Shown: piece by piece, positions 7,606 through 55,990 of the stretch
Layout of the letters: every line of letters starts with the position of its first letter
Numbering within the stretch: the stretch's first letter is position 1
IMG/VR virus record: IMGVR_UViG_3300036846_000743
Location: 1 to 64,000 of that record
DNA: 64,000 nucleotides
Source of the DNA: a virus
Strand: one strand, 5' to 3'
Notes under the pieces: generated by a model
What the model saw: the letters and a program-made list of their open reading frames with translations, nothing else
What the model was told of the DNA's origin: nothing
Databases searched by the model: none
Translations under genes and position numbers: made by a program

Positions 7606-9387
7606 TCAACCTTGTTTGATCTTGGGAACCGGGAATAGCAAAGTCGGGGTATCAGGCGGCAGGAATGTCCGCTTGAGCAGCACCCAACACGCCGGGTTGA
7701 ACATGAGCACCTTCACGTGCTCGCGTTCGAGTCGTTTCATGCGGAACACGGGGATATACAGGGGCGGCACCTCGATCCCTTTCTCCTCGGCCTCGAGCCG
7801 CGCGACTGTGTTCTTAACGACCTTGACGTTTTCCGCGCGGCAAAGCCGCTTCATCCATAAGGATGCCTTGCCGTAGTCTGGACAGTGATCGAGGCCGAAC
7901 GACTTATCGGTCAGCTTGGGTGCCCGCTTGAGGGCATCGGCCACGCCGTCCATCTCGACGTATTCCTTGGCCGTGGCGAACATCTGATGGCTCGGCAGGA
8001 TCAGCTGAATCGTCTGCCGGGACAGCTCCAGCTGCTCACGGTTGCTGACGGCAATGTCGGCCAGCCGGGCCACGGCCCCGGTCATGGTCGCAATCAGCTC
8101 GGCCAGCTCGCCGGGAGGAGCGCCATGGGCCTTGACGGCCTTCAGGACGATCGGTTCGAGCGTCGCCGGCAATTCCTCCAGGATGATCGCGCGGAACGCA
8201 GCACGCAGCTCCTCGTCCGTCAGGCCGGTCTTGGCACCAGGCGCTTTGTAATGGCCGTACTTGCGAATCGACGGCAAAACGTCGTGGTACACCCACCGTC
8301 TGAACCCCTCTGCATCCTTCTTGCGACTGGTCGAGATCAGTCTGTACAAGCCCGGTTCTTTGAGCGTGACGTGAGATTGGGGGCCGCCAGGGGTATCTAC
8401 TACGCGGAGCCCCTTTTCATCGGCAGGAACTCGCGACAGAGCCTGATGAGGTTGGGCGATACCGAGCGCATCGGTGACATAAAGCCCTACCCACTCAGGA
8501 TCTTCGTACGTCCCGAAGGTCGGACACGGATACTTGTCCATGAAGATATCCGGGACGCCTACCAGAGGCTGCTCGACCGGCAATTCGGGCTCGGGTGGTG
8601 GTGCTGAAGCCTCGACTGGCTTCTGGCCAGCCGCGATCGGTATGCCGTCGGCCAGCTGAAGCTCGCCGTCGGGGGCCATCATCGCCAGGCGCGGCAACAG
8701 TCGCGGCTCGGCTGGATGCCGACCCGCCCGCCACTCCGCCCGGTCCTGCGCCGTGGACAGCTGCGCGACGTGGAACGTCATCACGCGGGCTGCATCGTCG
8801 ACGGGGATGTCGAGGAGCGTAGGCTTGGCCCAGCTGGACAGCACCTTCGTGACGGCCGCCGTACCCAGGATCAGGACCGGCGTGACGTCACGCTCCAGCC
8901 TGGCGTCTCTCGCCTTGACCGCCGCCAGGAAGGTGGACTCGGGCATCCTTCTGCGCGTGGCGGTCCAGTGATCGATGGCCTCGTCCCAGGCCATGATCAG
9001 CTCGGCGTGATGCGCCGCGAAGGGGATGTATCTGGGCAGAACGTAGCGGATGAGATTGCGGCAGAACTCGATGTAGCCGCCGACGCGCATGTGGAACGCC
9101 TTCTGGATCAGTCCCTCCACAGCGAAAAGTGTTGTGCTCCGCATTCGCGTCTTGGTGTAGATCTTGTGCGGGTCCGGCACGCGCCGCACGTACTTCTCGG
9201 AGATCCCGCCGGCGATGTCGCTGGTGCTGTACTCGCCGGTAGCCCGGCGGCCGAAGCCGCTCAACCTCGCAACCTGCTGGGCCGGGGCCCAGAGAGTATG
9301 GTCCTGGCCGGGTTCGTGGAGAATGTCGACCTCCACGTCGCCATAGAACAAGATCGTCTGCGTCTCGTAGCCTTGGAGCGCTGGCAT
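7606..9387 (-). CDS. BRO-family phage antirepressor with two Bro-N-like regions
   Basis: 593 residues from ATG 9387. Residues about 285-380 match the Bro-N pattern: GLYVTDALGI, ADEKG, DTPGGPQSHVTLKEPGLYRL and WVYHDVLPSIRKYGHY. The first 120 residues also look Bro-N- or antirepressor-like (LWAPAQQVARLSG, TTLFAVEGLIQKAFH, YVLPRY), so the protein may carry two copies joined by a Pro/Glu linker (260-280). The C-terminal 200 residues resemble DNA-binding antirepressor tails. This family binds DNA or repressors to control phage lifestyle. The gene heads an operon and has a promoter-like element and palindrome upstream. Confidence 0.75.
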   Translation of the reverse strand: MPALQGYETQTILFYGDVEVDILHEPGQDHTLWAPAQQVARLSGFGRRATGEYSTSDIAGGISEKYVRRVPDPHKIYTKTRMRSTTLFAVEGLIQKAFHMRVGGYIEFCRNLIRYVLPRYIPFAAHHAELIMAWDEAIDHWTATRRRMPESTFLAAVKARDARLERDVTPVLILGTAAVTKVLSSWAKPTLLDIPVDDAARVMTFHVAQLSTAQDRAEWRAGRHPAEPRLLPRLAMMAPDGELQLADGIPIAAGQKPVEASAPPPEPELPVEQPLVGVPDIFMDKYPCPTFGTYEDPEWVGLYVTDALGIAQPHQALSRVPADEKGLRVVDTPGGPQSHVTLKEPGLYRLISTSRKKDAEGFRRWVYHDVLPSIRKYGHYKAPGAKTGLTDEELRAAFRAIILEELPATLEPIVLKAVKAHGAPPGELAELIATMTGAVARLADIAVSNREQLELSRQTIQLILPSHQMFATAKEYVEMDGVADALKRAPKLTDKSFGLDHCPDYGKASLWMKRLCRAENVKVVKNTVARLEAEEKGIEVPPLYIPVFRMKRLEREHVKVLMFNPACWVLLKRTFLPPDTPTLLFPVPKIKQG

Positions 9388-9428: not shown

Positions 9429-9457
9429 TATATGACAGGTTTTTTCCGTGTGGTAAG
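9429..9457 (-). promoter_or_regulatory. Promoter-like element upstream of the antirepressor
   Basis: Minus-strand CTTAC, 15 bases, then TGTCATATA, ending 42 bases before the antirepressor start. The same TGTCATA box with a CTAAA box at the identical 15-base spacing occurs at 52283, 53181 and 55962, each upstream of a minus-strand gene. Here the left box matches only three of five bases, so this copy is the weakest. Confidence 0.45.
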
Positions 9458-11818: not shown

Positions 11819-12055
11819 GGGACCTCCGTGGGGCCATTTGGGGCAGTTTGCGACAGTTTTCGCCAGATGCATTTGACCACGGAATGAGTGACATACGCTT
11901 GTCGCAATCATTCCAGGCTGCGCAAGTCTTGAAGGGTTCGAGACTTCTGGAGAATTAAACAAGTTGCACCAAGTGTTGCAACTATTGAAGCCTCGGACGC
12001 AAGTACTTGCTGGTATTGGTTTTAGTTAGCCTAAATATGGGAAGAAGACTTGTCA

Positions 12056-12087
12056 AGTCACTAGCCTATTGTTTTTTGCTAGTGACT
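12056..12087. repeat. Inverted repeat with 10-base arms
   Basis: AGTCACTAGC (12056-12065), 12 bases, GCTAGTGACT (12078-12087), perfect. One arm, GCTAGTGACT, recurs exactly at 9521-9530 upstream of the antirepressor, suggesting a shared binding site. Confidence 0.6.
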
Positions 12088-12101
12088 ACTACGTAGATAA
12101 C

Positions 12102-12145
12102 TTTTTGTGAGAGGTCGCCGCTTCGCGACCTCCCTCTCACAAAAA
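12102..12145. repeat. Long imperfect hairpin
   Basis: TTTTTGTGA + GAGGTCGC (12102-12118) pairs with GCGACCTC (12125-12132) and TCACAAAAA (12137-12145), with a four-base bulge: 17 base pairs in all. The flanks are T run on the left and A run on the right, so it is not a standard rightward terminator. Confidence 0.6.
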
Positions 12146-19988: not shown

Positions 19989-20153
19989 TCATCTCCCTAC
20001 GCGGTTCAAGTAAGTTGCGATGCAGTACCAGTACCAGGCCCCTTGCTCTTCTGCGCGGGGCAGGCACCACCAGCAAAACCAGAAGCCGCAGATCTGCTGC
20101 TCGAGGTTATCGCGGCGTTCGCAGTAGTAGCATTCGTCGGTTCTCATGGTCAT
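19989..20153 (-). CDS. 54-residue Cys/Trp-rich microprotein
   Basis: From ATG 20153, overlapping the sigma-factor stop as ATGA, to TGA 19989. Contains CYYCERRD and CGFWFCWWCL, i.e. four or more cysteines with many aromatic residues. Probably a zinc-stabilised mini-domain translated together with the sigma factor. Not long enough for family assignment. Confidence 0.5.
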   Translation of the reverse strand: MTMRTDECYYCERRDNLEQQICGFWFCWWCLPRAEEQGAWYWYCIATYLNRVGR

Positions 20154-21019
20154 GGCTCGAAATACTTGGCCAGTTTGTGCAGGTCACGGGCAAGCCGATA
20201 GAAGCCGTAACGCTCGAAGTCACGGGCCCGCTGGCCACTACGACCGAGCACCTCACCAATCTGGTGAAAGGTCATCGGCGGATCGTCGCCCAGACCGTAG
20301 CGCAGCACAAGAGTCGCCGCCCACAGCGGCTTGAGATATTCCAGCGTGTTGTACAGCTTGTTCCCCAGCCACCTGCGCTCGGCGTAGTCCTCGACGGGAG
20401 GAAGATCGGCGACCAGGTTATCGAGCGCGTCCTGGTTCTCATCAGGATCACGCGCGCGTACCTGGAACGCCCGGCGCCCATGTTCCAGGATCTTGATCTG
20501 CCGTTTCTTGAGCCTGAGCGCCGCCGCCACTGTCGTCCAGTGCGGGATATCGCCGAGCGTGATCATGAGCAGCTGCTCAGCTTTATCCCACCTTTTCAGG
20601 GCTTTGCGAACGGCATCAGGCACGGAGACCAGCTGATCATCGAGATGGATGGCCTTGATGACCCGGTTCACGATGTGATAGCGAGCGTAGGTGATAAAGC
20701 GGGCATTGCCGCCGACTATATAGTCAGGTATGGCTTCGAGAAGGCCGAGGTTACCAGCCTGGATCAGGTCCATGACGCGAACCCGGGAATGTCTGCCTTC
20801 CTCACGGCAGCCGCGCGTGTAAGCCCGGTGGAACCAACCGGCGCACCAGATGACATAGCGGAGATGCCGATGAATCAACTCCTGTCTTGCCTCTTCGCAT
20901 CCTTGCTTGGTCCGTATGATCAGTTCCAGTTCTTGGGCAGGTGTCGGCGGATCTAGCCCCAGTTCTCTGATCTGGCGTAGGTAGGTGGAGCGGCCGCGAC
21001 CCGGTATGCGGGCCTTCAT
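20150..21019 (-). CDS. RNA polymerase sigma-70 family factor
   Basis: 289 residues from ATG 21019 (AAGGGGAGAAC upstream). Seen in order: a region 1.2-like helix STYLRQIRELGL; region 2 with DLIQAGNLGLLEAIPDY and ARFITYARYHIVNRVIKAIH (core binding and -10 recognition); a region 3-like middle; region 4 with LRYGLGDDPPMTFHQIGEVLG followed by an RDFER recognition helix. This is a group 1-3 type sigma factor shorter than RpoD. It would redirect host RNA polymerase to phage promoters. The motif CTAAA-N15-TGTCATA found elsewhere in the window is a candidate target (inference). Confidence 0.85.
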   Translation of the reverse strand: MKARIPGRGRSTYLRQIRELGLDPPTPAQELELIIRTKQGCEEARQELIHRHLRYVIWCAGWFHRAYTRGCREEGRHSRVRVMDLIQAGNLGLLEAIPDYIVGGNARFITYARYHIVNRVIKAIHLDDQLVSVPDAVRKALKRWDKAEQLLMITLGDIPHWTTVAAALRLKKRQIKILEHGRRAFQVRARDPDENQDALDNLVADLPPVEDYAERRWLGNKLYNTLEYLKPLWAATLVLRYGLGDDPPMTFHQIGEVLGRSGQRARDFERYGFYRLARDLHKLAKYFEP

Positions 21020-51904: not shown

Positions 51905-52207
51905 TCAGGAGCGATACTCTACCAGCCGATGAGCAGGAAGCTGCTCGAGAATATCGGACGGTAGGTATTCGCATTCGGGCAACAGCCCATCCCCGACATC
52001 CGGCGTAGCATCGAGGTCTTGTCCAGTGACCTCGCCGGCACACAGAGAGCAGAGCCACACGGTGAACTCCTCACCCGCGACTACCAGCAACACGACATGA
52101 GTCGCGTCGAGGTCTCCGCACTGCGTACAGGAACAACAGGAACACTCTGGCACACAGTCAACGATCCAGGCGTCGCTGTCGACATCTGGTTGAAGACGTC
52201 CTTTCAT
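51905..52207 (-). CDS. Cys-rich hypothetical protein
   Basis: 100 residues from ATG 52207. A cluster CVPECSCCSCTQCG near residues 18-30 and a later CSLCAG make eight Cys, pointing to metal binding. No signal peptide. Preceded by a CTAAA-N15-TGTCATATA promoter. Confidence 0.5.
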   Translation of the reverse strand: MKGRLQPDVDSDAWIVDCVPECSCCSCTQCGDLDATHVVLLVVAGEEFTVWLCSLCAGEVTGQDLDATPDVGDGLLPECEYLPSDILEQLPAHRLVEYRS

Positions 52208-52282
52208 TTGCTGGACTCCCTGCTACGATCACCATGCTTCCGGGCACGATGCCAGCGATCCACAACCTATGTAGATCAACGC

Positions 52283-52311
52283 TATATGACAGGAATCTGG
52301 GCGAAATTTAG
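52283..52311 (-). promoter_or_regulatory. Phage promoter candidate, copy 1
   Basis: Minus strand CTAAA (52307-52311), 15 bases, TGTCATATA (52283-52291), 76 bases before the ATG of the 51905 gene. Identical to copy 2 in both boxes and at five positions between them. Confidence 0.55.
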
Positions 52312-52327
52312 CGCCCAGAAACGAAAC

Positions 52328-52361
52328 GGCCCGGCTTGGAGGCAAACCTCCGGGCCGGGCC
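52328..52361 (-). terminator. GC-rich terminator
   Basis: GGCCCGG (52328-52334), GGAGG, CAAA loop, CCTCC, CCGGGCC (52355-52361); T-rich GTTTCGTTTC on the minus-strand flank. Ends the PEP-CTERM gene. Confidence 0.65.
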
Positions 52362-52393
52362 ATTTTCAGCAGGATAACGTGGTAGCGCGTTGC

Positions 52394-53092
52394 TTACGCC
52401 TTGCGGACGGACCTGCGGAAGTACCGTCTGTAGGCGAGCACACCAGTGAGCCCGATGCCCATCAGGGACATCGAGGCAGGCTCAGGCACGGCCTGCTGCG
52501 AGAAACTACCGTTAGCGACGATCGTCGAACCTGGCGTCGCGAACAACCCGGCAAAGCTATTGATCCCCCCACCGAAGGTAGTTCCGGTAAAGGTGAAGTT
52601 GATATCGCCGCCCTTGGCAAACAGCGAGTAGTCAAACCGTGGGTTGTCGTTCTCGATCAGACTGACGATCTTGCCGCTCATATTGAAAAAGTTGGGCAAA
52701 ACGGTCGGGGCAACACCAGTCGTGGCGGTGAACGTCAGCATCGCTTCAGCGCCCGGCACGTCGCCAACGGTCTTGGTATAGGTTGATGGCGACAGCGCCA
52801 ACGAGTAGGTCTCCGAGCCAGTAGGCGTCACCAACAAGGTGATCGGCCCGTTGACCGAGATCGGCTCAGGTGTCAGCAGTGACACGCCGTTGACCGTGTT
52901 CACCTGACTGAACAGATTGGGTATCCGCGCGATCTCGATCGTCGCGGTACCTCCCGAGATCCCCATGTTCGTCAGCTCGACACCGCCGATCGAACCGGAG
53001 TCGCTGAACACCACGGTACCGGCTTGCGCCGATCCCAGGCCGGCGATCGCAGCGACCAAAGCCATGGCAAAACAGAGAGAACGCATCTTCAT
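52394..53092 (-). CDS. PEP-CTERM domain surface protein
   Basis: 232 residues from ATG 53092 (GGAAGT and GGAG upstream). N-terminal signal peptide (RSLCFAMALVAAIAGLG, AQA cleavage). A Thr/Gly/Ser-rich middle with beta repeats. C-terminal VPEPASMSLMGIGLTGVLAY followed by RRYFRR is a classical PEP-CTERM sorting tag (PEP motif, membrane helix, basic end), cut by an exosortase. The protein would be exported and anchored or processed at the cell surface. Unusual on a phage-like replicon. Confidence 0.85.
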   Translation of the reverse strand: MKMRSLCFAMALVAAIAGLGSAQAGTVVFSDSGSIGGVELTNMGISGGTATIEIARIPNLFSQVNTVNGVSLLTPEPISVNGPITLLVTPTGSETYSLALSPSTYTKTVGDVPGAEAMLTFTATTGVAPTVLPNFFNMSGKIVSLIENDNPRFDYSLFAKGGDINFTFTGTTFGGGINSFAGLFATPGSTIVANGSFSQQAVPEPASMSLMGIGLTGVLAYRRYFRRSVRKA

Positions 53093-53119
53093 ACTTCCGA
53101 TACTCCATACTAGAGACAC

Positions 53120-53133
53120 GAACAGCGCTGTTC
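53120..53133. promoter_or_regulatory. 14-base perfect palindrome
   Basis: GAACAGCGCTGTTC about 30 bases before the PEP-CTERM start codon; a possible operator or translational element. Confidence 0.4.
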
Positions 53134-53180
53134 CGTACTCCACGCACGGAACCTGAAGCCCGGGCTATAGGGCTCCATAG

Positions 53181-53209
53181 TATATGACAGGCAGACGGCC
53201 GAAGTTTAG
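53181..53209 (-). promoter_or_regulatory. Phage promoter candidate, copy 2
   Basis: Minus strand CTAAA (53205-53209), 15 bases, TGTCATATA (53181-53189), about 90 bases before the PEP-CTERM start. Confidence 0.55.
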
Positions 53210-53275
53210 CCCCTTGTCCGCCTATCTGGACGGCCGGCCAGGCTGTTGCTTCTTTCCGACACGTGTGACCGCCGC

Positions 53276-53590
53276 CTAGAAAGTCCGGTCAGTAACTTTG
53301 TTGGCTGCGTTGACGTGCACAACGCGGACCTGCCTGGCCCGCAGGAATTGCTTGAAGCGGATCTTGTCCTGGGGCTGAAGCGCCGCCAGCTCGTTCTTGA
53401 ACGTCCGATATTCGGCCAGAACAGTCCGTTGTTTCTTGGGGCAGCGACCGCAGCCCCGGCCCTGCTTGACCTGAACCAGCCGGGCCAGATGGGGAAACTC
53501 ACTGCGAAAGTCTTCCCGCGCCACCAGCGAGTCGATCAGGCTGTTCTCGATCACGACAACGCCGCGCATGGTCTCTGTACCGGTCGACAT
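53276..53590 (-). CDS. Hypothetical protein
   Basis: 104 residues from ATG 53590. A CxxC in GRGCGRCPKKQRT plus basic helices (LAEYRTFKNELAALQPQDKI). First gene of the probable virion block. Not recognised. Confidence 0.5.
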   Translation of the reverse strand: MSTGTETMRGVVVIENSLIDSLVAREDFRSEFPHLARLVQVKQGRGCGRCPKKQRTVLAEYRTFKNELAALQPQDKIRFKQFLRARQVRVVHVNAANKVTDRTF

Positions 53591-53592
53591 GT

Positions 53593-54081
53593 TCAGCTCT
53601 CCGAGCCAATGGTGATCGGGGGTGCCGTGTTCTGCTGATCCATCACGTTGAGGGTCTCGACCAGCTGATTCACCTCGTACAGGATCGCATTGTACGCATC
53701 GTTGGCGATTGACCGGCTGCGCACGATCAGGTCGACGTAGTCGAGCCGGTACCAGGGCGGGCGCGCGTTCTGGACCGGCCAGTCCTCGGGAAAGTCCTCG
53801 AGATCGGCCGGACTGCAAACACCATCGAACGCCCCCATGTACTCGATGGCTACCGGCGGCTGATCAACGGTACCGGCCTGTACCCTGGTGGGCACAAGCC
53901 GGTAGCGAAAGATCTTGGTCGGCATCTGGACCGCCCCCGTGACGACAAGGGTGAACCGAAAGCCGTCGATCACGTTGGGCACGTACCCTTGCTGGAACGT
54001 GGGAACCAGCGTGATCTGCCGGATCCCGGTGCCGACAATCAGGGTATCCGCGGACTGATCGAGCGACTGCGTGGTGGCCAT
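53593..54081 (-). CDS. Hypothetical protein, possible virion component
   Basis: 162 residues from ATG 54081. Strand-rich (ADTLIVGTGIRQITLVPTFQ, FRFTLVVTGAVQM) with a long helical end (SIANDAYNAILYEVNQLVET). Neighbours are fibre-like proteins. No family recognised. Confidence 0.5.
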   Translation of the reverse strand: MATTQSLDQSADTLIVGTGIRQITLVPTFQQGYVPNVIDGFRFTLVVTGAVQMPTKIFRYRLVPTRVQAGTVDQPPVAIEYMGAFDGVCSPADLEDFPEDWPVQNARPPWYRLDYVDLIVRSRSIANDAYNAILYEVNQLVETLNVMDQQNTAPPITIGSES

Positions 54082-54126
54082 TTCACATCCTCCCTGCGTG
54101 ACACGTCGGCTGTCAGTCCGGCGAAC

Positions 54127-54582
54127 CTATCTCGGGGTGCGGTTGAAGTCCATGCTATCCGTTGCCCCGCACTCAGGACAGGTATTGTCCGGAAAGCCAA
54201 CCCTGGCCCTGTACGAGCAGTTGCGGCAGCGGATACGAAATTCCCGCGCGTCACCCTCCTCCTTCTGAAACGGCTCGATGTAAGTGACGCCCTGGCGGAC
54301 GAGCTTGTTCAGATAAACCAGCTCATCCAGGCAAACCTCGATGCGATCCATGAGGTCAGGCCCCGCGTGCTTAGGATCGTCCTTGAGCACAGCGTGGATG
54401 TCAACGGCAGACGCCGCGTACAGCTTGTGTACCTGGCGGCGCACGGCAGAACGAAAACTTATATACTCCTGTGTATGCTTTGCATTCTGGGTTGGCATCT
54501 GTACGGCCCTCGTAGTATGGCGATGCCGGGCGCAAAGAGAACGTATGTACTCCTGCATGCCCTCTGTGATCTTCTTTGGCAT
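54127..54582 (-). CDS. Hypothetical protein with C-terminal zinc ribbon
   Basis: 151 residues from ATG 54582. Basic helical first 110 residues, then CRNCSYRARVGFPDNTCPEC, a zinc ribbon. Might bind nucleic acid. Not recognised. Confidence 0.55.
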   Translation of the reverse strand: MPKKITEGMQEYIRSLCARHRHTTRAVQMPTQNAKHTQEYISFRSAVRRQVHKLYAASAVDIHAVLKDDPKHAGPDLMDRIEVCLDELVYLNKLVRQGVTYIEPFQKEEGDAREFRIRCRNCSYRARVGFPDNTCPECGATDSMDFNRTPR

Positions 54583-54616
54583 TCGTACCCCCTTCGTAGA
54601 AACGAACGAGCCTGGT

Positions 54617-55006
54617 TCAGTGTTTCAGCTCGAAAGACTCTTCTTCCTCGACGGTCACCGCACGCTTGGTGATCACCTCGTCGTTGCGAATGATGTAGAT
54701 GACAAACTCGTCGCCCTTCTTGCCGGCGATAAAAGCGTCGGGCACCAGGAAGCCCTTCGCCCAGACCAACTTCTTGGTGGCGGATTCCGTCGGAATGTCT
54801 GTGAGCGGTCGGAACGCACCCATCGCGAAGTCAAAGAACATGACGGGCCTGCATCCCTCGTCGGCATCATCCGCCTGGTCGTTCCTCTTTTTCTTCTTCT
54901 TGGGTTTCAGTTCGACTGCGTAAGCATAGATAGCTTTCCTGTCGCTCTTCGGCGCCAGGTAGCTGATCGTGAGCGGTTTGATCACAGCACTCTTCACCCA
55001 TCGCAT
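54617..55006 (-). CDS. Hypothetical protein
   Basis: 129 residues from ATG 55006. A basic run KPKKKKKRND and then strands (EFVIYIIRNDEVITKRAVTV). Not recognised. Confidence 0.45.
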   Translation of the reverse strand: MRWVKSAVIKPLTISYLAPKSDRKAIYAYAVELKPKKKKKRNDQADDADEGCRPVMFFDFAMGAFRPLTDIPTESATKKLVWAKGFLVPDAFIAGKKGDEFVIYIIRNDEVITKRAVTVEEEESFELKH

Positions 55007-55272
55007 GCCGACTGCCTCCCGGCTGACCACGCCATGAAGTAACGGTTGCCACCGTGACCGCCACGGCGATCTGCCAGCTTTTCCTGCTCGAACCGATCCA
55101 GCATCAGCTGGACCTGTTCGAGAACTTGCCTGTGAGGATATGCACGGTATGTCGGACGATCGTGCAGCAAACCGGTAGCTTCTTCAGCGCTCAGCCCGCC
55201 GGCTATGGTCTCGACCAGCAACTCTAACAGGTCAACCTTGAGCAGCTTGAGATCGATCGAAGATGGTTCCAT
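54994..55272 (-). CDS. Small hypothetical protein
   Basis: 92 residues from ATG 55272 (GGAGGTACGA upstream). Helical start (IDLKLLKVDLLELLVETIAG), basic Gly-rich end (RRGGHGGNRYF). Overlaps the next start by 13 bases. Confidence 0.5.
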   Translation of the reverse strand: MEPSSIDLKLLKVDLLELLVETIAGGLSAEEATGLLHDRPTYRAYPHRQVLEQVQLMLDRFEQEKLADRRGGHGGNRYFMAWSAGRQSACDG

Positions 55273-55289
55273 TCGTACCTCCGATAGTG

Positions 55290-55318
55290 AAAAAAATAGG
55301 CCGCCCCGAGGGGCGGCC
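55290..55318 (-). terminator. Strong Rho-independent terminator
   Basis: GGCCGCCCC (55299-55307) pairs with GGGGCGGCC (55310-55318); TATTTTTTTC follows on the minus strand. It ends the 55353 gene. Confidence 0.8.
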
Positions 55319-55352
55319 GGTTGCCGGTGCTGGTGGTGGTGAGTCGGTCCGG

Positions 55353-55895
55353 TCACTTCAGCGGCAGCTTCGAGCCCCTGAGCATCTCCGACACGAAGCG
55401 CAGCGAGTTCTGCCGGAACTTCTCCTGGGCTTCCTCGCCGCGAATGTCGGCGCGATCCATCAACGCCACGAGGCGACGCTGGGAATCCCGCTTGACCTCG
55501 ACGCTGGGCCAGCGATCGAGCGTGTCCGCGCTGTAGATTGCCGTGAGCACGGTCATCAGCTGCAACTTGTCGACGTCCGGCTTGGCTTCCAGCGCGGCAA
55601 GCTGCCGCAAGGCCACGTCGACCACGCTCGGCTTGGGCTTGGGCGTCGACCGGTACTGCGTGCGATCCATCAGCACCCCGAGCCGCTCCATGCAGGTCAT
55701 GCCAACATCCTTGTCGGGCCAATGGTTGCCGTGGTGCACGGTGAGGCCCAGCCCGGCAACCACGTCCAGGTCGAGCATGAACGTGGCGTCGAGGGGCCGC
55801 TGCTGTGCCCGTCGCTCCAGGTCTTCAAGGCCATCCATCAGCAGCTTGAACAGATCCGGTTCAGGACCGGCTGTCGCCAGCGAATCCGGTGACAT
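55353..55895 (-). CDS. Hypothetical helical protein
   Basis: 180 residues from ATG 55895. Helices (LFKLLMDGLEDLERRAQQRP), a HHGNHWPD loop, basic C-terminal helices (DSQRRLVALMDRADI). Not recognised. Preceded by promoter copy 3. Confidence 0.5.
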   Translation of the reverse strand: MSPDSLATAGPEPDLFKLLMDGLEDLERRAQQRPLDATFMLDLDVVAGLGLTVHHGNHWPDKDVGMTCMERLGVLMDRTQYRSTPKPKPSVVDVALRQLAALEAKPDVDKLQLMTVLTAIYSADTLDRWPSVEVKRDSQRRLVALMDRADIRGEEAQEKFRQNSLRFVSEMLRGSKLPLK

Positions 55896-55961
55896 TGGTG
55901 ATCTACCTTTCGTAGAAAAAGTTGGGTAGGACCACTCCACAACTAGGAAGTGGCCTTACTG

Positions 55962-55990
55962 TTTATGACATTTTTCCGGCTGATCTTTAG
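55962..55990 (-). promoter_or_regulatory. Phage promoter candidate, copy 3
   Basis: Minus strand CTAAA (55986-55990), 15 bases, TGTCATAAA (55962-55970), 67 bases before the start of the 55353 gene. The CTAAA box lies in a small hairpin CTGATC...GATCAG (overlapping region 55979-55995). Confidence 0.5.

Follow-up and report, generated by a model that had tools for sequence, protein, structure and literature searches.

A conserved two-box element, very probably a promoter, accompanies a sigma-70-family factor and a multisubunit RNA polymerase in a phage lineage

Reviews state that the multisubunit RNA polymerases (RNAPs) of jumbo phages occur without sigma homologs (PMC13282480, PMC7824862), and the jumbo phages that encode sigma factors are those without an RNAP (PMC7598289). 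The early promoters of the phiKZ/AR9 type consist of a single AT-rich box of about 10 nt at −10 (PMC7598289, PMC7824862, PMC13282480). Here, we describe a bipartite element in the first 64,000 positions (hereafter the window) of the IMG/VR virus record IMGVR_UViG_3300036846_000743 (G000; record length 226,073 bases). The element consists of CTAAA and [T/C/G]G[T/G]CATAWA with 15 or 16 bases in between. By computation, it has a constrained spacing, is conserved in relatives, lies upstream of genes, is followed by a hairpin and co-occurs with genes for a sigma-70-family factor and an RNAP. Judged by these sequence features, it is very probably a promoter. As in phages of the phiKZ/AR9 type, the multisubunit RNAP is phage-encoded, the motif precedes scattered small operons at no more than a few tens of sites, and its use at the start of infection is proposed. 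Those phages have a single box and no sigma homolog, whereas the lineage described here combines two boxes in fixed spacing with an evident sigma-70-family protein, and thus departs from the described RNAP-encoding jumbo phages in both respects. Since the reviews deny sigma homologs to such phages, the combination of RNAP and sigma factor appears to be new. A literature search, mostly without subscription journals or preprints, found no paper describing the promoter or the lineage, and an earlier description is possible. The 'Moraphages' (PMC12619734), a candidate parent lineage, were set aside because they lack an RNAP. The name G000 and the similar ones below denote the genomes compared.

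Two further promoter types resemble the element in part. The consensus of sigma-28 (FliA/SigD) promoters is TAAA-N15-GCCGATAA with a spacing of 14–16, and in T4-type PeSL cassettes an early promoter is joined to a stem-loop, T4 early promoters being served by the host sigma-70. The likeness to sigma-28 promoters noted in the original prediction, which was made from the letters of the window alone, extends to the TAAA of the −35 box and the spacing of 14–16 bases. It does not extend to the −10 box, which is TGTCATAWA in the window and NG(T/G)CATAWA over the 46 sites collected in the lineage, and not GCCGATAA; moreover, the conserved sigma factor is closer to SigA. With the T4 cassettes the element shares the pairing of a promoter with a stem-loop before scattered small ORFan genes, and spacers that are semi-conserved inside clades suggest spreading here. 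In contrast to the T4 cassettes with their host sigma-70, a phage sigma factor apparently acts here, and the hairpin starts at the presumed transcript start.

The exact form CTAAA-N15-TGTCATAWA occurs three times in the full 226,073-base record, always inside the window, on the minus strand and between genes, while the reversed control pattern had 0 matches in the same record. Under an order-1 Markov model, the expected number of exact copies is 0.00005 for the window and 0.00017 for 224 kb. When up to three mismatches were allowed, the window held 6 matches vs. 1.35 expected, a number reached by 0 of 100 shuffles. The original prediction had named these three copies, each with 15 bases between the boxes and ahead of a start codon, and had proposed a scan of the whole record; the copies lie at the positions that it had given, and the record holds no other exact one.

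52283-52311, minus strand: putative promoter copy 1, CTAAA-N15-TGTCATATA, exact match, intergenic, 75 nt before the ATG of 51905-52207
53181-53209, minus strand: putative promoter copy 2, CTAAA-N15-TGTCATATA, exact match, 88 nt before the ATG of 52394-53092
55962-55990, minus strand: putative promoter copy 3, CTAAA-N15-TGTCATAAA, exact match, 66 nt before the ATG of 55353-55895

G001 (IMGVR_UViG_3300047160_005727, 141 kb) is a relative found via a protein search (AAA protein 75% identical). It carries eight good copies with spacers of 15 or 16, several of which share their gene order with window copies. A scan of IMG/VR by the pattern alone returned 58 stretches, approximately the chance number by our own estimate; two of them, G010 and G013, encode proteins that are colinear with those of G000 and in many cases 25–45% identical. 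In 12 related genomes (1.84 Mb), of which G010 and G013 had entered via the motif and eight had been fetched after a pattern search with fixed N15, exact CTAAA/G[TG]CA[TC]A pairs numbered 30 at N15 and 6 at N16, vs. 0–5 at each of 17 other spacings; the reversed pattern gave a flat profile. G001, picked by protein alone, had 4 pairs at N15, 2 at N16 and zero at other spacings. Seven further sigma-carrying genomes, fetched later and mostly for showing few or no earlier matches, had 12 pairs at N15 and 2 at N16 vs. 0–4 per other spacing. One of these seven, G034, in which the first pattern had given no match, contained five variant copies (mostly GGGCATATT), all at N15. Two conserved boxes at a −35/−10-like distance, separated by a variable spacer and with a spacing peak at N15/N16 only, are thus present, as in promoters of the sigma-70 type. 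The spacing of exactly 15 bases first proposed holds for the three window copies and widens to 15 or 16 across the lineage. The −10 box varies between clades (GTCATAWA, GGCATAWA, GGCATATT, GTCATTAT), and 4–9 sites were found per genome. At its third base, G030, G031, G034 and G045 have G where others have T; in some of these genomes, the conserved sigma factor differs in residues close to the double glutamine of region 2.4, a tentative lead. Sites are present in about three quarters of the genomes read that encode the conserved sigma factor at an identity of at least about 40%, or are colinear with such genomes. In records with more distant sigma factors, motif counts were not clearly above those of controls.

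The sites are largely excluded from coding DNA and lie upstream of genes. Open frames of at least 200 codons covered 12 of 45 collected sites vs. 1552 of 1800 random positions, and an open reading frame (ORF) led by a ribosome-binding site (RBS) began within 260 nt downstream of 39 of 46 sites, at a median distance of 72 nt. In four genomes with gene calls, made with a simple home-made caller, all but one of the sites with at most one mismatch lay between genes or at gene edges, intergenic DNA making up 10–13% of the sequence. The genes downstream are mostly small and unconserved. The original prediction had stated that it would fail if the motif occurred within genes at least as often as ahead of them. 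Such a distribution was not observed, and the proposed sigma-type promoter layout is upheld by the two boxes with 15 or 16 variable bases between them, the position outside coding DNA and before start codons, and the conservation in relatives.

A hairpin was predicted directly downstream of the element. The 36 nt immediately past the −10 box folded better than shuffled sequences (mean z −1.72, with 57% of sites below −1.5), vs. a mean z of −0.16 to −0.85 at other offsets around the site. The stem, whose sequence varies from site to site, usually begins 3–6 nt beyond the −10 box. This is at or close to a conserved TG and would be where the transcript has its 5' end. A start-like TG and a hairpin are conserved where a sigma-70 start, expected about 7 nt downstream of the −10 box, would fall. 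For the window copies, the hairpins rest on the fold and the enrichment across the family:

52256-52278, minus strand: predicted 5' transcript hairpin of copy 1
53154-53177, minus strand: predicted 5' transcript hairpin of copy 2
55926-55959, minus strand: predicted 5' transcript hairpin of copy 3

Two sigma-like proteins of the record came into question as readers of the motif. The one originally proposed is encoded in the window:

20150-21019, minus strand: sigma-70-family protein (PF04542, E 9.3e-6) with sigma regions 2 and 4

It is related to gp196 of Salmonella phage Arash and gave no relatives as a query against IMG/VR. Because the motif-carrying relatives have no homolog of it, it is probably not the factor of the motif. 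A different sigma gene, at 70212-71003 of the record and hence outside the window, accompanies the motif in relatives. It sits among structural genes and encodes a divergent sigma-70-family factor of 263 aa (PHROG sigma, E 9.5e-7; profile against PDB SigA, E 6.3e-18). The profile spans SigA regions 2–4, region 2 being recognized from profile and fold and not by Pfam; Sigma70_r3 was found in 25 of 25 orthologs and r4 in 11 of 25. Its predicted structure comprises sigma2-sigma3-linker-sigma4 helices (mean pLDDT 79, pTM 0.43). The best Foldseek matches of this model were sigma subunits at a low global TM, which is probably due to flexibly linked domains. By profile score the protein is nearer to SigA than to FliA. 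An IMG/VR search with its alignment yielded 32 loci, whereas its patterns found no relative in 84,980 prokaryote genomes and therefore gave no clue to the host. From its company with the motif, this conserved phage sigma factor is likely the motif's reader.

The multisubunit RNAP is encoded at 116389-125329 of the record, with beta and beta' domains (Pfam). RNAP, conserved sigma factor and a capsid gene were all found in G000, G001, G010, G028, G030, G033, G036, G041 and G044; parts were missing in G013, G031 and G045, of which an incomplete record or an incomplete stretch was read. Judged by its RNAP, the lineage is closest to Arash and three Vibrio phages among cultured phages. The RNAP of Arash is 33% identical over 99% of the query, and its sigma factor Gp10 is homologous to the conserved one (E 2e-12). 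In both phages, the sigma gene lies in a structural gene cluster. RNAP beta, beta' and Gp10 were all found in Arash virions (PMC10585845), while in the lineage here RNAP and sigma factor are known from their genes. The authors of that study considered that the polymerase might serve early transcription, and described no promoter (PMC10585845).

A different motif, previously undescribed, is present in Arash (OQ632216): GGTATAAG-(TAA..GTGTAA) occurs 31 times upstream of genes over the 174 kb that were read. Its −10-like box and its start region are conserved and, in contrast to the element here, a conserved −35 box is absent. It is likely a promoter class of Arash. The RNAP genes themselves showed unusual structures. 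The gene for beta and the N-terminal part of beta' in G000 (119827-125329, minus strand) contains a LAGLIDADG insertion and is covered by two overlapping frames, of which the second opens directly behind the insertion; the matching region of G001 is a single frame of 1489 aa. An assembly error, an intron or an intein plus a frameshift could each explain the G000 arrangement. In G010, the homologous gene (80382-87222, minus strand) is split into two proteins whose facing ends resemble the N- and C-terminal parts of an intein, pointing to a split intein in this phage RNAP.

We propose the following account, which we moderately favor as a whole. The promoter would consist of the CTAAA box at −35, the 15- or 16-base spacer and the extended −10 box, followed after a few bases by a start region, usually with TG, and then by the hairpin, directly where the transcript is presumed to begin. 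The sigma factor at 70212-71003 would recognize it together with the phage RNAP, and use of the phage core at the motif sites seems reasonably likely. By analogy with Arash, the holoenzyme of RNAP and sigma factor would be carried in the virion and fire on the entering DNA, so that the mostly small and unconserved genes behind the sites would be early genes; we lean slightly towards early rather than late timing. The 5' hairpin might protect the mRNA or assist early elongation.

Several observations weigh against this account. The CTAAA motif was sought in Arash and showed no excess there; Arash is distant and uses a different motif, and the virion result is thus carried over by analogy only. 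In the 12-genome spacing test, the selection of eight genomes by a fixed-N15 pattern favors N15; the counts from G001 and from the seven further genomes are free of this bias or almost so. Four of those seven sigma-carrying records, G029, G032, G037 and G043, which were partly read, had no sites of the motif form. Some copies may be duplicated cassettes, given the semi-conserved spacers, and would then not be independent evidence. Finally, 4–9 sites per genome are too few to serve all genes.

The conserved sigma factor might instead work with the host core RNAP, like T4 gp55 or the SPO1 factors, in the middle or late period of infection. Most sigma-encoding jumbo phages do use the host RNAP (PMC7598289), and the location of the sigma gene among structural genes would suit a late-made protein. 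We nevertheless regard this as unlikely, since beta and beta' are phage-encoded here, the virions of Arash contain both sigma factor and RNAP, and strong sites are scarce among the structural genes. A promoter read by the window sigma factor (20150-21019), or by an unrelated host factor such as sigma-28 or sigma-32, appears less probable still. In favor of this reading, the window protein has regions 2 and 4 of a sigma factor, the TAAA box and the spacer length recall sigma-28 promoters, and CATAT is similar to the −10 box of sigma-32, but the motif-carrying relatives lack the window sigma factor, and neither GCCGATAA nor CCCCAT fits the G and C that are invariant in the −10 box. These two bases are invariant in 46 of 46 sites by construction of the site set, and they are invariant between clades too.

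Two readings dispense with a conventional sigma promoter. As a conserved bipartite intergenic site followed by a structural hairpin, the element could be an operator bound by a regulator of the phage, or it could function at the RNA level through both boxes. We hold this to be very improbable in view of the directional placement before RBS-led ORFs, the −35/−10-like distance with one base of play, the AT-rich second box, the TG start region at a fixed distance, and the co-occurrence with a sigma factor. Still more remote is an N4-type hairpin promoter or cruciform displaying CTAAA in the loop of an upstream stem. Several G000 copies do have an inverted repeat with CTAAA in the loop (copy 1: TCTGGGCG-CTAAATTT-CGCCCAGA), but this upstream hairpin is missing from many G001 copies and not enriched over the 46 sites (mean z −0.46 and −0.31), and an Rfam search with the element gave no match.

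The genes behind the window copies had been described as late or envelope genes, a description that found no support: one encodes a PEP-CTERM protein, and for the products of the other two Pfam and PHROG searches gave no family match.

51905-52207, minus strand: ORF for a 100-aa Cys-rich protein behind copy 1
52394-53092, minus strand: PEP-CTERM protein behind copy 2 (PF07589, E 5.1e-6)
55353-55895, minus strand: ORF for a 180-aa protein behind copy 3

The gene order at copy 1 equals that at position 105677 of G001, where the downstream gene encodes a similar Cys-rich product. Copy 2 has positional counterparts at G001 104650 and G028 4094, and its PEP-CTERM protein is 60% identical to the G001 counterpart; copy 3 is comparable in position to G001 102271. 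A PEP-CTERM protein is unusual for a phage and hints at a host that uses exosortase sorting.

A weaker copy had been proposed before the antirepressor gene:

9429-9457, minus strand: weak putative promoter copy, CTTAC-N15-TGTCATATA, 2 mismatches, intergenic

It lies 41 nt ahead of the ATG of 7606-9387, whose product is antirepressor-like with a Bro-N/Ant domain (Pfam and PHROG searches). Though not an exact copy, it is a plausible weak member of the motif family, with the customary TG past its −10 box. The partial plus-strand copy proposed at 12031-12059 was dropped; with 3 mismatches it reads TGTCAAGTC and lacks the −10 core. Two hairpins lie in the intergenic stretch 12031-12140, one a perfect inverted repeat (GTCACTAGC...GCTAGTGAC) and the other rich in G+C, and the stretch is origin-like or terminator-like. 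Outside the window, a good copy with 1 mismatch is present at 119557-119585 of the record on the plus strand. It points against the neighboring genes, and the sole RBS-led product in the next 150 bases is a hydrophobic peptide of 32 aa; its transcript may encode a small membrane peptide or be a non-coding RNA. Weak matches within coding DNA were dismissed (e.g., 24219, 121258, 162962, 189770 and 205703). A search for a second strong upstream motif in G000 found none besides ribosome sites; a repeated GGCGC-N16-CTGGCC dyad was rejected, as its copies have no common flanks.

With an RNAP, a sigma factor and a matching promoter family together, sigma-dependent initiation with a phage core becomes testable. 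The motif is a signature by which a class of genes can be predicted in phages of the lineage, and the coevolution of promoter and sigma factor can be traced across many genomes. The lineage could, in what we judge an evenly balanced proposition, package a full bacterial-style holoenzyme of its own beta/beta' and a sigma-70-family factor, a self-contained and host-independent system that would start infection from −35/−10 promoters coevolved with the sigma factor and give hairpin-led transcripts.

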